This document shows, in pieces, positions 15,269 through 30,683 of a stretch of 34,397 nucleotides of DNA. The translations under genes and the position numbers were made by a program. The notes under the pieces are model-generated. The model searched no databases and had not been told where the DNA came from. It saw only the letters and a list, made by a program, of their open reading frames with translations. The number at the start of each line of letters is the position of its first letter. Position 1 is the stretch's first letter. The stretch comes from Aquabacterium sp. (GTDB taxonomy: Bacteria; Pseudomonadota; Gammaproteobacteria; Burkholderiales; Burkholderiaceae_C), in NCBI GenBank assembly GCA_023150345.1, contig JAKLLB010000039.1:2797-37193 (forward strand). The letters are read 5' to 3'.

Positions 15269-16087
15269 ATGGATCGCCTGCACAAGTTCCTCTTCGAGGG
15301 CATGCCCGTGCGCGGCATGATCGTGCGGCTCGAAGGCGGCTGGCGCGACCTGCTCGCGCGGCGCACCAGCCGTGACGACGGCGGCCATGCATTCACGCAG
15401 CCGGTGCGCTCGCTGCTGGGCGAGATGGCCGCTGCGGCCTGCCTGATGCAGGCCAATCTCAAGTTCAATGGCGCGCTGGTGCTGCAGGTGTTCGGTGACG
15501 GACCGGTCAAGCTGGCAGTAGCCGAGGCGCAACATGATTTGAGCTTCCGCGCCACGGCCAAGGTCAGCGGCCCCGTGCCTGCCGGCGCTGGGCTCAAGGC
15601 GATGCTCAACGTGCACGGCAAGGGTCGATGCGCCATCACCCTCGATCCGAAGGATCGCCTGCCCGGACAGCAGCCTTACCAAGGCGTGGTGCCCCTGCAC
15701 GGCGACCGGCGCGAGCCGCTGGACGAAGACGCGATCGGTCGCAGCGAAGACTACAACCGCATCGCGATGCTGGCCGGCACGCTCACTGCCGAGGAACTCC
15801 TGGCGCTCGACCCCGATGACCTGATGCGGCGGCTGTTCTGGCAGGAGCGCGTGCTGCGCTTCGAGCCGCAGACGCCGCACTTCGCCTGTACCTGCTCTCG
15901 CGAGCGGGTGGCCCGGATGCTGTTCGGGCTGGGCCGCGAAGAGGTCCAGGGCATCGTCGACGAGCAGGGCCAGGTGGAGATCGGTTGCGACTTCTGTGGC
16001 GCCCAATACCGATTCGATCCGGTGGACGCGCTGGCGTTGTTCACTCCGGATGCCGAGCGGGCGCCCGGGAGCCCGTCGGTTCAGTAG
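15269..16087 (+). CDS. hslO: Redox-regulated chaperone Hsp33
   Basis: Cytoplasmic holdase activated by oxidation: four cysteines release zinc and form disulfides under bleach or peroxide stress. The 272-aa product carries the C-terminal zinc switch Cys207-x-Cys209 and Cys240-x2-Cys243, with 30 residues between the pairs. The N-terminal domain has AACLMQANLKFNGALVLQVFGDGPVKLAVAEA and GKGRCAITLDP. The last 47 bases overlap, on the opposite strand, the 3' end of the NadR-type kinase gene, so the two transcripts can pair at their ends. The terminal 15 residues after FTPDAER are not conserved and seem to be an extension into that overlap. Confidence 0.95.
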   Translation: MDRLHKFLFEGMPVRGMIVRLEGGWRDLLARRTSRDDGGHAFTQPVRSLLGEMAAAACLMQANLKFNGALVLQVFGDGPVKLAVAEAQHDLSFRATAKVSGPVPAGAGLKAMLNVHGKGRCAITLDPKDRLPGQQPYQGVVPLHGDRREPLDEDAIGRSEDYNRIAMLAGTLTAEELLALDPDDLMRRLFWQERVLRFEPQTPHFACTCSRERVARMLFGLGREEVQGIVDEQGQVEIGCDFCGAQYRFDPVDALALFTPDAERAPGSPSVQ

Positions 16088-16673
16088 CGCGCGCCCCGAT
16101 CCACGGCGCGATGGCTTCGAGCACCGATTCGAGCCGCCGGTCACCCTGGCCGTGCACGCGGCGCCAGGGCAGGGCGTGGCTGTCGAGGAGCTGCCGCAGC
16201 AAAGCGTCGATGGGTTCGCGCACGTGGGGTCCGTCGCGCTGCAGGCCATCGGCCTGCCAGGGCAGATCGAGTGCCGTGAGCAGCGTGAGCGTGCAACTGC
16301 GTTGCCAGCGCAGGGCAAGGTCGTGCAGCGACCGATCGCCGAATACATGCTCACTGTAGACCGCCGTCATCAGCGGCGTGGTGTCGCACAGCACCAGTTC
16401 GAACCGGGCGGCGGCCTCGGCAATGCGCCGCGCCTGCTCGGCCGCGATGGCGGCCTGCTCGTCGATGCGCGGCGTTCGGCCGTGCTCATCGCACCACTGA
16501 CGCAGGACTTCCGGCACCCAGGTGCTGCGCACGCCATGGTGCGATGCCAGGTGCTCGCTGGCGTGGCGGGCGAGCCAAGTCTTGCCCGTGCTCTCGGCGC
16601 CGACGATGGCGATGCACAGGCCGCCTGAGGCCTCGGGCGCGGGCAGCACTGTGCGTGGGTGCGGGGTCATCAT
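16041..16673 (-). CDS. NadR-type ribosylnicotinamide kinase (single domain)
   Basis: P-loop kinase of the NadR C-terminal/AAA_28 group; in NadR this domain phosphorylates nicotinamide riboside to NMN. From ATG 16673 the 210-aa protein has Walker A GAESTGKT (25-32), VPEVLRQWCDEHGRTPR, the DTTPLMTAVYSEHVFGD segment and the NadR-like LLTALDLPWQADGLQRDG lid. It lacks both the helix-turn-helix and the NMN adenylyltransferase domain of E. coli NadR, so it should only make NMN. A homologue-level function is supported by pnuC, the NR channel, two genes upstream in the same coupled operon. Its start overlaps the Crp/Fnr stop (ATGA). The 3' end overlaps hslO by 47 bp. Specificity for NR rather than another nucleoside is inferred. 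Confidence 0.8.
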   Translation of the reverse strand: MMTPHPRTVLPAPEASGGLCIAIVGAESTGKTWLARHASEHLASHHGVRSTWVPEVLRQWCDEHGRTPRIDEQAAIAAEQARRIAEAAARFELVLCDTTPLMTAVYSEHVFGDRSLHDLALRWQRSCTLTLLTALDLPWQADGLQRDGPHVREPIDALLRQLLDSHALPWRRVHGQGDRRLESVLEAIAPWIGARATEPTGSRAPARHPE

Positions 16674-17395
16674 CCGGCCTGGCCTACCCATGCGCGCAGG
16701 CCTTCGAGGTTGAGTACGGTCATGCCCCGAGGTTCCAGTTCGAGCAGGCCGTCTTCGCGCAGGCGCCGCAGGGCACGGTTCACGCGCTGGCGCGACAGGC
16801 CGCACAGCAGCGCCACCTCGGCCTGCCGCACATCGAGCGCCAGCCGTTGAGCCGGCTCCTGCTCGGGGTCGAACAGCGATGCCAGGCAGCGCGCCACCCG
16901 GGCGTCCGGCCCCAGCAGCCGGCCGTGTTCGAGCATGCCGATGAACTGCGCCAGGCGTGCGTTCATCAGGTGCTGCAGCGCATGGTTGAACGGCAGACTG
17001 TTCTGGCGCAACCACTCGAAGGTGGCCGCAGGCACCAGGGCGATGCGGCACTCGCGCAGGGCCACGATGTCGTAGCGCCGCGATTCGCGCTTGATCAGCG
17101 ATCCCTCGCCGAACCAGCCCGGCGTGGCCAGGCCGCTGAGCGTGGACACCCGACCATCCGCCGAGGTGACCGACATCTTCAGCACGCCGTTCATCAGCCC
17201 GAGCCAGTGCGTGGGTGCCTCGCCCATGTGGGCCACATAGCCGCCTGCCGGCACGGTGCGTGCGGTGGCCGACTCGAGCACGCGACGCAGTTCAGCGGGC
17301 TCGAGCACCCGGCCCCAGCGCGACTCGCCGACGAAGGCTGCCAGCGGGTCGGGGTCGCGCTCGGGGGGCCGCGTGTCGGCGCTCGGGTGCATCAT
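16670..17395 (-). CDS. Crp/Fnr-family transcriptional regulator
   Basis: A 241-aa regulator with an N-terminal cyclic-nucleotide-binding-type beta roll (about 35-135; WFGEGSLIKRESRRYD at 94-109 corresponds to the phosphate-binding cassette), a dimer helix (about 138-158) and a winged helix-turn-helix (about 189-213, AEVALLCGLSRQRVNRALRRL). It has only three scattered cysteines (116, 170, 198), so it is not an FNR-type iron-sulfur sensor. It is sandwiched between pnuC and the NR kinase with 4-nt overlaps on both sides, which suggests control of NAD-precursor uptake or of its own operon. The effector is unknown; a nucleotide is plausible for the fold. I know of no named NAD regulator of this type. 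Confidence 0.9.
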   Translation of the reverse strand: MMHPSADTRPPERDPDPLAAFVGESRWGRVLEPAELRRVLESATARTVPAGGYVAHMGEAPTHWLGLMNGVLKMSVTSADGRVSTLSGLATPGWFGEGSLIKRESRRYDIVALRECRIALVPAATFEWLRQNSLPFNHALQHLMNARLAQFIGMLEHGRLLGPDARVARCLASLFDPEQEPAQRLALDVRQAEVALLCGLSRQRVNRALRRLREDGLLELEPRGMTVLNLEGLRAWVGQAG

Positions 17396-18012
17396 GATGA
17401 GCGTGCCAGGCGTGCCCAGGCGCGCCAGCCCCACAGTGCCATCACCGTGAACAGCGCGTACAGCAGGACGGTCAGCCACAGCCCCTTCACACTGAACAGC
17501 ACCACGCTGACCAGGTTCACCGCCACCCAGACCGGCCAGTTCTCGACCAGCTTGCGGCCGAGCAGGAACTGACCGGTGACGCTGCCCACCGTGGGCAGGG
17601 CGTCGAGATAGGGGACGTCGGTGTCGGTGGTGTGCGCCAGCAGCAGGCCCAGCAGCGGCCAGGCAGCCAGCGTCGCCAGTGCGGTCCAGACGCGTGAGCG
17701 CGGGGACAAGCGGTGCACCTGCAGTGGCGCACCGGTGCTGTCGGTGCCGCGCAGCCACTGCCACCAACCCCAGCCCGCCACCACGACGAACAGCACCTGC
17801 AGCCCGGCTTCGCCGTACAAGCGGCTGTGCAGGAACAGCAGGCCATACAACGCGGAGGCTGCGATGGCCAGCGGCCATGCCAGCACGTGCACGCGGATGT
17901 TGCATACCACCATCCAGACCGACAGCACGAACGCCACCACCTCGATCCAAGTGACCGGGCTGCCCCACAGCGCGAATGCCGCGGCGTAGATGTCGATCGT
18001 CGCGAGCGTCAC
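17392..18012 (-). CDS. pnuC: Nicotinamide riboside transporter PnuC
   Basis: Inner-membrane channel of the PnuC family (206 aa, about seven hydrophobic segments), which lets nicotinamide riboside diffuse in for trapping by phosphorylation. Characteristic parts are GSPVTWIEVVAFVLSVWMVVCN, LLFLHSRLYGEAGLQVLFVVVAGWGWWQWL and the NWPVWVAVNLVSVVLFSVKGLWLTVLLY end. PnuC relatives can carry thiamine or riboflavin, but the kinase two genes downstream favours NR. The start is a GTG that overlaps the ftsB stop (GTGA); the stop overlaps the Crp/Fnr ATG. No riboswitch is possible directly upstream because there is no leader. Confidence 0.92.
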   Translation of the reverse strand: MTLATIDIYAAAFALWGSPVTWIEVVAFVLSVWMVVCNIRVHVLAWPLAIAASALYGLLFLHSRLYGEAGLQVLFVVVAGWGWWQWLRGTDSTGAPLQVHRLSPRSRVWTALATLAAWPLLGLLLAHTTDTDVPYLDALPTVGSVTGQFLLGRKLVENWPVWVAVNLVSVVLFSVKGLWLTVLLYALFTVMALWGWRAWARLARSS

Positions 18013-18281
18013 CGGCGGGTGATCTGCACGAAGACCTCATCCGGGCGGACCATGCCCAGCTCCAGCCGGGCGCGCTCTTCCACCATCTCCAGGCCCTGTC
18101 GCAGGTCCTCGACCTCAGCCACCATGCGCGCATTGCGCAGGCGCTGGGCATCGTTGGACTGGCGCAGCCCGTCGAGCTGCGTCTGCAGCTTCATCACCTG
18201 TGGCGCACCGCCATCGCCCAGCCACAGCTTGGCGTGCACGAGCCCCAGCAGTGCCAGCAGCAACAGCGTGGTGGGGCGCAT
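18009..18281 (-). CDS. ftsB: Cell division protein FtsB
   Basis: Small bitopic divisome protein (90 aa) that forms FtsQLB and helps switch on septal murein synthesis. Residues about 4-20 (TTLLLLALLGLVHAKLW) are the membrane anchor and about 28-75 a coiled coil with regular Leu/Val positions (LQTQLDGLRQSNDAQRLRN), including the conserved GLEMVEERARLELGMVRPDE end. It follows eno by 44 bp, the usual eno-ftsB pairing in Proteobacteria. Its stop overlaps the pnuC GTG by 4 nt, which is unusual: a division gene is coupled to a vitamin transporter. Confidence 0.93.
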   Translation of the reverse strand: MRPTTLLLLALLGLVHAKLWLGDGGAPQVMKLQTQLDGLRQSNDAQRLRNARMVAEVEDLRQGLEMVEERARLELGMVRPDEVFVQITRR

Positions 18282-18325: not shown

Positions 18326-19792
<1,467 letters not shown>

Positions 19793-30609: not shown

Positions 30610-30683
30610 TGGGCAGCCCGGTGATGACTCCATGGCGTCGGCGCGACAATGGCCGCAAAACACCCGATTTTACCGGCCGCCCC

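Follow-up and report, generated by a model that had tools for sequence, protein, structure and literature searches.

In Haemophilus and the enterobacteria, PnuC and NadR serve the salvage of nicotinamide riboside (NR). PMC5343134 describes the nadA-pnuC regulon of NadR, limits NadR within the Proteobacteria to the Enterobacteriales, and places NadQ in alphaproteobacteria as well as several beta- and gammaproteobacteria. Judged by their published descriptions, NadR, NrtR, and NadQ belong to protein families other than Crp/Fnr, as does NiaR, and all four would share their physiological subject with a Crp/Fnr protein if the latter regulated nicotinamide adenine dinucleotide (NAD). Here, we analyzed a 34,397-nucleotide stretch of DNA from Aquabacterium sp. 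(the window), in which a gene for a Crp/Fnr-family regulator (hereafter crp) is located between pnuC and the gene for a NadR-like kinase. The first-pass annotation had proposed that this regulator senses an NAD-related or redox signal and controls NR salvage. Like the NadR systems of Haemophilus and enterobacteria, the locus combines adjacent genes for a PnuC-family transporter and a NadR-type kinase domain. In contrast to NadR, the kinase forms a protein of its own that lacks an adenylyltransferase or DNA-binding part, and its gene is located behind eno-ftsB.

We consider the locus to be best explained, with a probability of roughly 0.58, as ordinary NR salvage combined with an inherited Crp/Fnr regulator that acts elsewhere. 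Judging from their families, PnuC would admit NR and the NadR-like kinase would trap it as nicotinamide mononucleotide (NMN). A single insertion probably placed crp at the pnuC-kinase junction in the ancestor of five genomes. A gene for a LivK-type binding protein probably arrived together with it and would have been lost later in the window lineage, where crp is translated as part of the housekeeping operon. Its product is most likely a trans-acting regulator of genes for transport and acyl-coenzyme A (acyl-CoA) metabolism with TGTCG-N6-CGACA in their promoters, and not of NAD genes.

All four genes of the block are encoded on the minus strand. The cell division gene ftsB (18009..18281) overlaps the NR transporter gene pnuC (17392..18012, with a GTG start) by GTGA at 18009..18012, pnuC overlaps crp (16670..17395) by ATGA at 17392..17395, and crp overlaps the gene for a NadR-like ribosylnicotinamide kinase, consisting of the kinase domain alone (16041..16673), by ATGA at 16670..16673. 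The coordinates thereby confirmed the three 4-nt overlaps noted earlier. Compact operons often contain overlaps of this kind, which on their own are no proof of shared function. Comparison of junction sequences revealed that all three are conserved in genome G204 (G and L numbers denote the genomes and loci compared; G000 is the window's genome). In G205, the crp/kinase ATGA was the sole overlap conserved, the other two junctions being gaps, and in G143 and G217 crp adjoined the kinase gene without an ATGA overlap. Scans for tRNAs and for promoters and terminators yielded nothing useful.

The ftsB product scored above the cut-offs of DivIC (PF04977) and of the FtsB model NF002058 (102.4 bits; cut-off, 101). 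Membership of PnuC in its family was indicated by scores above the curated cut-offs of PF04973 (173.8 bits; cut-off, 27.3; E 4.2e-51) and TIGR01528 (78.5 bits; cut-off, 42.45), and the protein matched the solved PnuC structure 4qtn (E 2.3e-6). The kinase reached 88.3 bits with AAA_28 (cut-off, 27). With the full NadR model TIGR01526, it reached 46.4 of 341 bits over positions 165 to 319 of 325 only, which correspond to the kinase part, so that it is not a full NadR comprising adenylyltransferase and kinase. As a single query, the window kinase retrieved no solved-structure match. A profile of 12 kinase rows matched the kinase part of the NadR structures 1lw7, 8x7f, and 9x6f (1lw7 over 158 positions; E 1.8e-6), and the GAESTGK (Walker A) and DTT motifs were invariant across all 12 rows. 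Kinase-domain homology and both motifs identify a NadR-type ribosylnicotinamide kinase, and family membership supports the earlier suggestion that PnuC and this kinase would form an NR-salvage pair.

Among 200 genomes of the family that were searched, pnuC was present in 113, and one locus was examined in each of 105. Left out were the pnuC genomes G009, G039, G045, G080, G087, G112, G120, and G134 and the additional pnuC matches of G064, G076, and G119. An eno match was located upstream of pnuC in 98 of the 105 loci, and in the window eno, encoding enolase (18326..19657, minus strand, from the list of open reading frames), likewise forms the head of the usual locus. ftsB was located upstream in 101 loci; of the four lacking it, two (L079 and L096) begin at a contig end. 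The kinase gene followed within 300 nt of the pnuC match in 98 loci, was farther away in 4 (G000, G143, G199, and G098), and had no match in the remaining 3 (L040, L085, and L102). Hence, eno-ftsB-pnuC-kinase is the normal arrangement of this family locus, and translation behind a division gene, which had been thought unusual, is not. A Crp was encoded between pnuC and the kinase gene in only two loci (G000 and G143), both from the window's genus, and we therefore rejected the view that the trio is conserved as a regulated unit. The first-pass annotation had named absence of the regulator from most relatives keeping pnuC and the kinase as an outcome that would refute its proposal, and most relatives indeed keep the pair without crp. 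In two further loci (L039 and L041, from G199 and G098), ∼2.9 kb separates pnuC from the kinase gene. Pfam confirmed an enoyl-CoA hydratase (L039) and a family-III CoA-transferase (L041) within this gap, the content of which is a second, independent insertion at the pnuC-kinase junction.

The window's genus was sampled with 21 genomes, several of them incomplete, of which 20 had pnuC and 20 a kinase match. In 5 of the 20 genomes with pnuC, a Crp of at least 61% identity was encoded between pnuC and the kinase gene (G000 itself, G204 with 92%, G205 with 67%, G217 with 63%, and G143 with 61% Crp identity). The kinase gene directly followed pnuC in 14 of the 20 (as a fragment at the contig end in G200) and was located ∼18 kb from it in G210. 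The five pnuC-locus Crps formed one clade in the Crp tree (support, 98/99), and the five carrier genomes formed one clade on eno, ftsB, pnuC, and kinase (support, 94/97). Since Crps and genomes each form a single clade, crp was likely inserted once, in the ancestor of the five genomes. The branching order inside the clade was settled by neither the Crp tree nor the four-gene tree.

The crp product contains a cNMP_binding domain (PF00027; 53.2 bits) and an HTH_Crp_2 domain (PF13545; 52.9 bits), both above cut-off. It thus combines the cNMP-binding domain and Crp-type helix-turn-helix (HTH) that define the Crp/Fnr family. With CRP, Vfr, and GlxR (chain 4cyd, which we take to be GlxR), it shares these two domains and the predicted 5-6-5 palindromic geometry of the operator. 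Its phosphate cassette contains RRYD in place of the RSA of Vfr, which in the alignment is opposite a gap in the window Crp preceded by RRYD, and it reached only 44.7 of 266 bits with the CRP model NF008732; by these two measures, it does not fit the cyclic-AMP-dependent CRP type. Proteins of the FNR (Fe-S) type carry an N-terminal cysteine cluster, whereas the three cysteines of the window Crp are residues 116, 170, and 198 of 241, which does not fit that type either. Its recognition helix reads GLSRQRVNRAL. Scanning contigs with the window Crp as query gave three loci.

A candidate operator recurred upstream of related crp genes. With at most one mismatch allowed, TGTCG-N6-CGACA was present in the 250 nt preceding the crp match in 30 of 55 crp loci, which are related to one another, and was perfect in 23. 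By comparison, 29 other permutations of the half-sites yielded no perfect site and at most seven with one mismatch. The half-site of the CRP box is TGTGA, and the CooA box is similar; the half-site predicted here, TGTCG, differs from it. A paralogue with 41 to 43% identity to the window Crp was encoded in 19 of the 21 genus genomes. In three loci (L150, L151, and L152), it was divergent from an AMP-ligase gene (identified by Pfam for L151), with a perfect box between the two; in G143 (L150), the corresponding ligase gene was followed by ATP-binding cassette genes of the branched-chain type. In the window's genome, the only perfect site at the promoter of a relative was that of this paralogue, on contig C88 and again divergent from an AMP-ligase gene. 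Perfect boxes outnumbered those of a reversed-pattern control genome-wide in G204 (4 versus 2), G205 (7 versus 0), G143 (8 versus 2), and G217 (6 versus 5). The counts upstream of crp genes suggest that at least part of the Crp subfamily binds TGTCG-N6-CGACA, so that a specific operator can be predicted for a Crp/Fnr subfamily in this bacterial family. We found no description of an operator of this kind for the Crp/Fnr subfamily in the open-license literature, and nothing relevant there on the palindrome or on a link between ftsB and pnuC. Separately, a Crp with 46 to 49% identity (L147, L148, and L149) was divergent from a gene of the molybdenum-hydroxylase type (by Pfam in L147, by resemblance in the others), with a box upstream that was perfect in L148 and L149 and had one mismatch in L147.

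That the pnuC-locus Crp also may recognize this box is suggested by G143 and G217, where pnuC and crp are ∼1.3 kb apart. In G143, the intervening stretch is a gene for a LivK-type binding protein (Peripla_BP_6) that converges on pnuC and diverges from crp, and a LivK-type gene with 80% identity occupies the same place in G217. The box between livK and crp was perfect in G143, where the gap contains the palindrome TGTCGTTGCAACGACA, and had one mismatch in G217. Related Crps were also searched in 399 genomes of the family, and 20 wider loci around related crp genes were compared. The order box-livK-crp on the same strand was found in 4 of these 20 loci, from two other genera (G104, and G407, G096, and G350 of one genus), with Crps 59 to 63% identical; the box before livK was perfect in three and had one mismatch in one. 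These boxes before livK are not included in the 55-locus count. The four Crps, each encoded behind a LivK-type gene, are among the six nearest from outside the genus. The remaining crp loci that were fetched had varied neighbors (efflux pumps, dCTP deaminase, and others, named from their first residues only) or nadC (by Pfam). No pnuC or kinase match was found within 1.5 kb of 27 related Crps outside the genus (L240 to L266). In G205, another contig carries a 16-mer identical to the box of G217, ∼67 nt upstream of a LivK-type gene, which makes this gene a plausible trans target. In the window lineage, neither livK nor a box is present at crp. A relocation of livK inside the window's genome was considered and rejected: its four homologues are only 34 to 36% identical, and a single weak site was seen, upstream of one homologue.

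Several observations weigh against a regulator inherited with livK and acting at this box. The box was unevenly distributed: 24 of the 28 loci from the window's genus had it, versus 6 of 27 outside the genus (two perfect), and 19 of the 24 in-genus loci represent a single paralogue. Only two of the five pnuC-locus Crps (G143 and G217) have it. The SRQR-(V/A/T)-N helix, conserved in all five pnuC-locus Crps, occurs in 38 of 40 rows, whether or not a box is present; with many of these 38 lacking the box, it does not discriminate. G209:C3, the sole row with a quite different helix, has no box. In the window's genome, perfect boxes were fewer than control sites (7 versus 10), which ruled out a large regulon there by motif count, and when a longer pattern was searched with up to two mismatches, no excess over the control was seen in any of six genomes. 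Of the six closest Crps from outside the genus, that of G197 and a second one in G407 are not behind livK, the LivK of G205 is only 38% identical to that of G143, and near the four LivK-type genes of G000 we found just two sites, one of them upstream and weak, with one mismatch, and the other within a gene. The trees do not settle whether livK arrived with crp or afterwards. Finally, ratios of nonsynonymous to synonymous substitution rates (dN/dS) of crp, pnuC, and the kinase gene, estimated by a simple counting method, were 0.20, 0.23, and 0.20, respectively, between G000 and G204 and 0.46, 0.40, and 0.37 between G000 and G205. crp is under purifying selection, about like its neighbors, and the agreement of the values versus G204 fits a shared role too. 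This selection, together with the conserved overlap with the kinase gene, is the strongest point for such a role.

The selection on crp, its position adjacent to the kinase gene in all five carriers, and the ATGA overlap in three of them (G000, G204, and G205) favor a dedicated NR/NAD regulator, i.e., a Crp that would govern pnuC-kinase and NAD genes in response to NMN, NAD, or redox state. Further favorable evidence came from another genus, represented by 13 genomes, of which three carry a related Crp at E 1e-55 or better; all three have nadC nearby (L278, L337, and L274). nadC was divergent from and adjacent to crp in G265 and G416, with a one-mismatch box in the nadC-crp gap of each, and ∼2 kb away in G058. 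We nevertheless consider the NAD reading quite unlikely, because G265 and G416 are closely related (nadC 95% identical), the other crp loci scanned revealed no nadC, and the link was noticed post hoc. Moreover, a Crp was not located between pnuC and the kinase gene in 103 of the 105 family loci and in 15 of the 20 genus genomes with pnuC, and four of the six nearest outside-genus Crps follow livK instead. The first-pass annotation had also suggested a test for conserved motifs upstream of pyrG, eno, and other NAD genes. Neither pyrG and eno nor the trio had a box at up to one mismatch; the only such site in the window is at 30633, so that a local operator was dismissed, and the 8.7-kb stretches of G204 and G205 likewise contained none. 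The 200 nt upstream of eno contained no perfect 5-6-5 dyad in G000 or G204 and one unrelated dyad in G205. Of 11 box sites inspected in G000, none was next to a recognized NAD-metabolism gene, as judged from reading-frame starts. Apart from nadC in the other genus, we thus observed neither an operator at NAD genes nor conserved co-occurrence, and a dedicated NAD-sensing salvage regulator, as initially proposed, is not supported and appears quite unlikely. The guess of a new NAD regulator has thereby become testable, with a mostly negative answer. About as doubtful is a Crp clade that forms an NAD-linked branch of a Burkholderiaceae Crp subfamily with TGTCG-N6-CGACA operators, acquired a place next to NAD genes on two independent occasions (at pnuC and the NR kinase gene in the window's genus and at nadC in the other genus), and adjusts the supply of NAD to the acyl-CoA and amino-acid transport status sensed by its relatives. 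If the pnuC and nadC neighborhoods do reflect function, a Crp/Fnr-type NAD regulator would be new.

A passenger gene without functional link to its neighbors, expressed at operon level and binding, by cross-talk, where the C88 paralogue binds, strikes us as possible but rather unlikely. The helix is of the same type as that of the paralogue (SRQRVN versus SRQRTN), and the paralogue's promoter has a perfect box; yet crp has been maintained by selection between G000 and G204 and is present in all five descendants. That the arrangement is an artefact of assembly or annotation seems extremely improbable: although the window's genome is a draft of 251 contigs, the same order and overlaps recur in G204, another assembly, and the same gene order in G205.

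Downstream of the block, a convergent gene on the plus strand (15269..16087), named hslO (Hsp33) by reading its sequence and not from a family scan, overlaps the 3' end of the kinase gene with its own 3' end by 47 nt. Its product comprises 272 amino acids and lacks 53 internal residues present in the G204 version (325 amino acids), with nearly identical flanks; this difference may reflect either a real deletion or an assembly fault. hslO is likewise located downstream of the kinase gene in many relatives.

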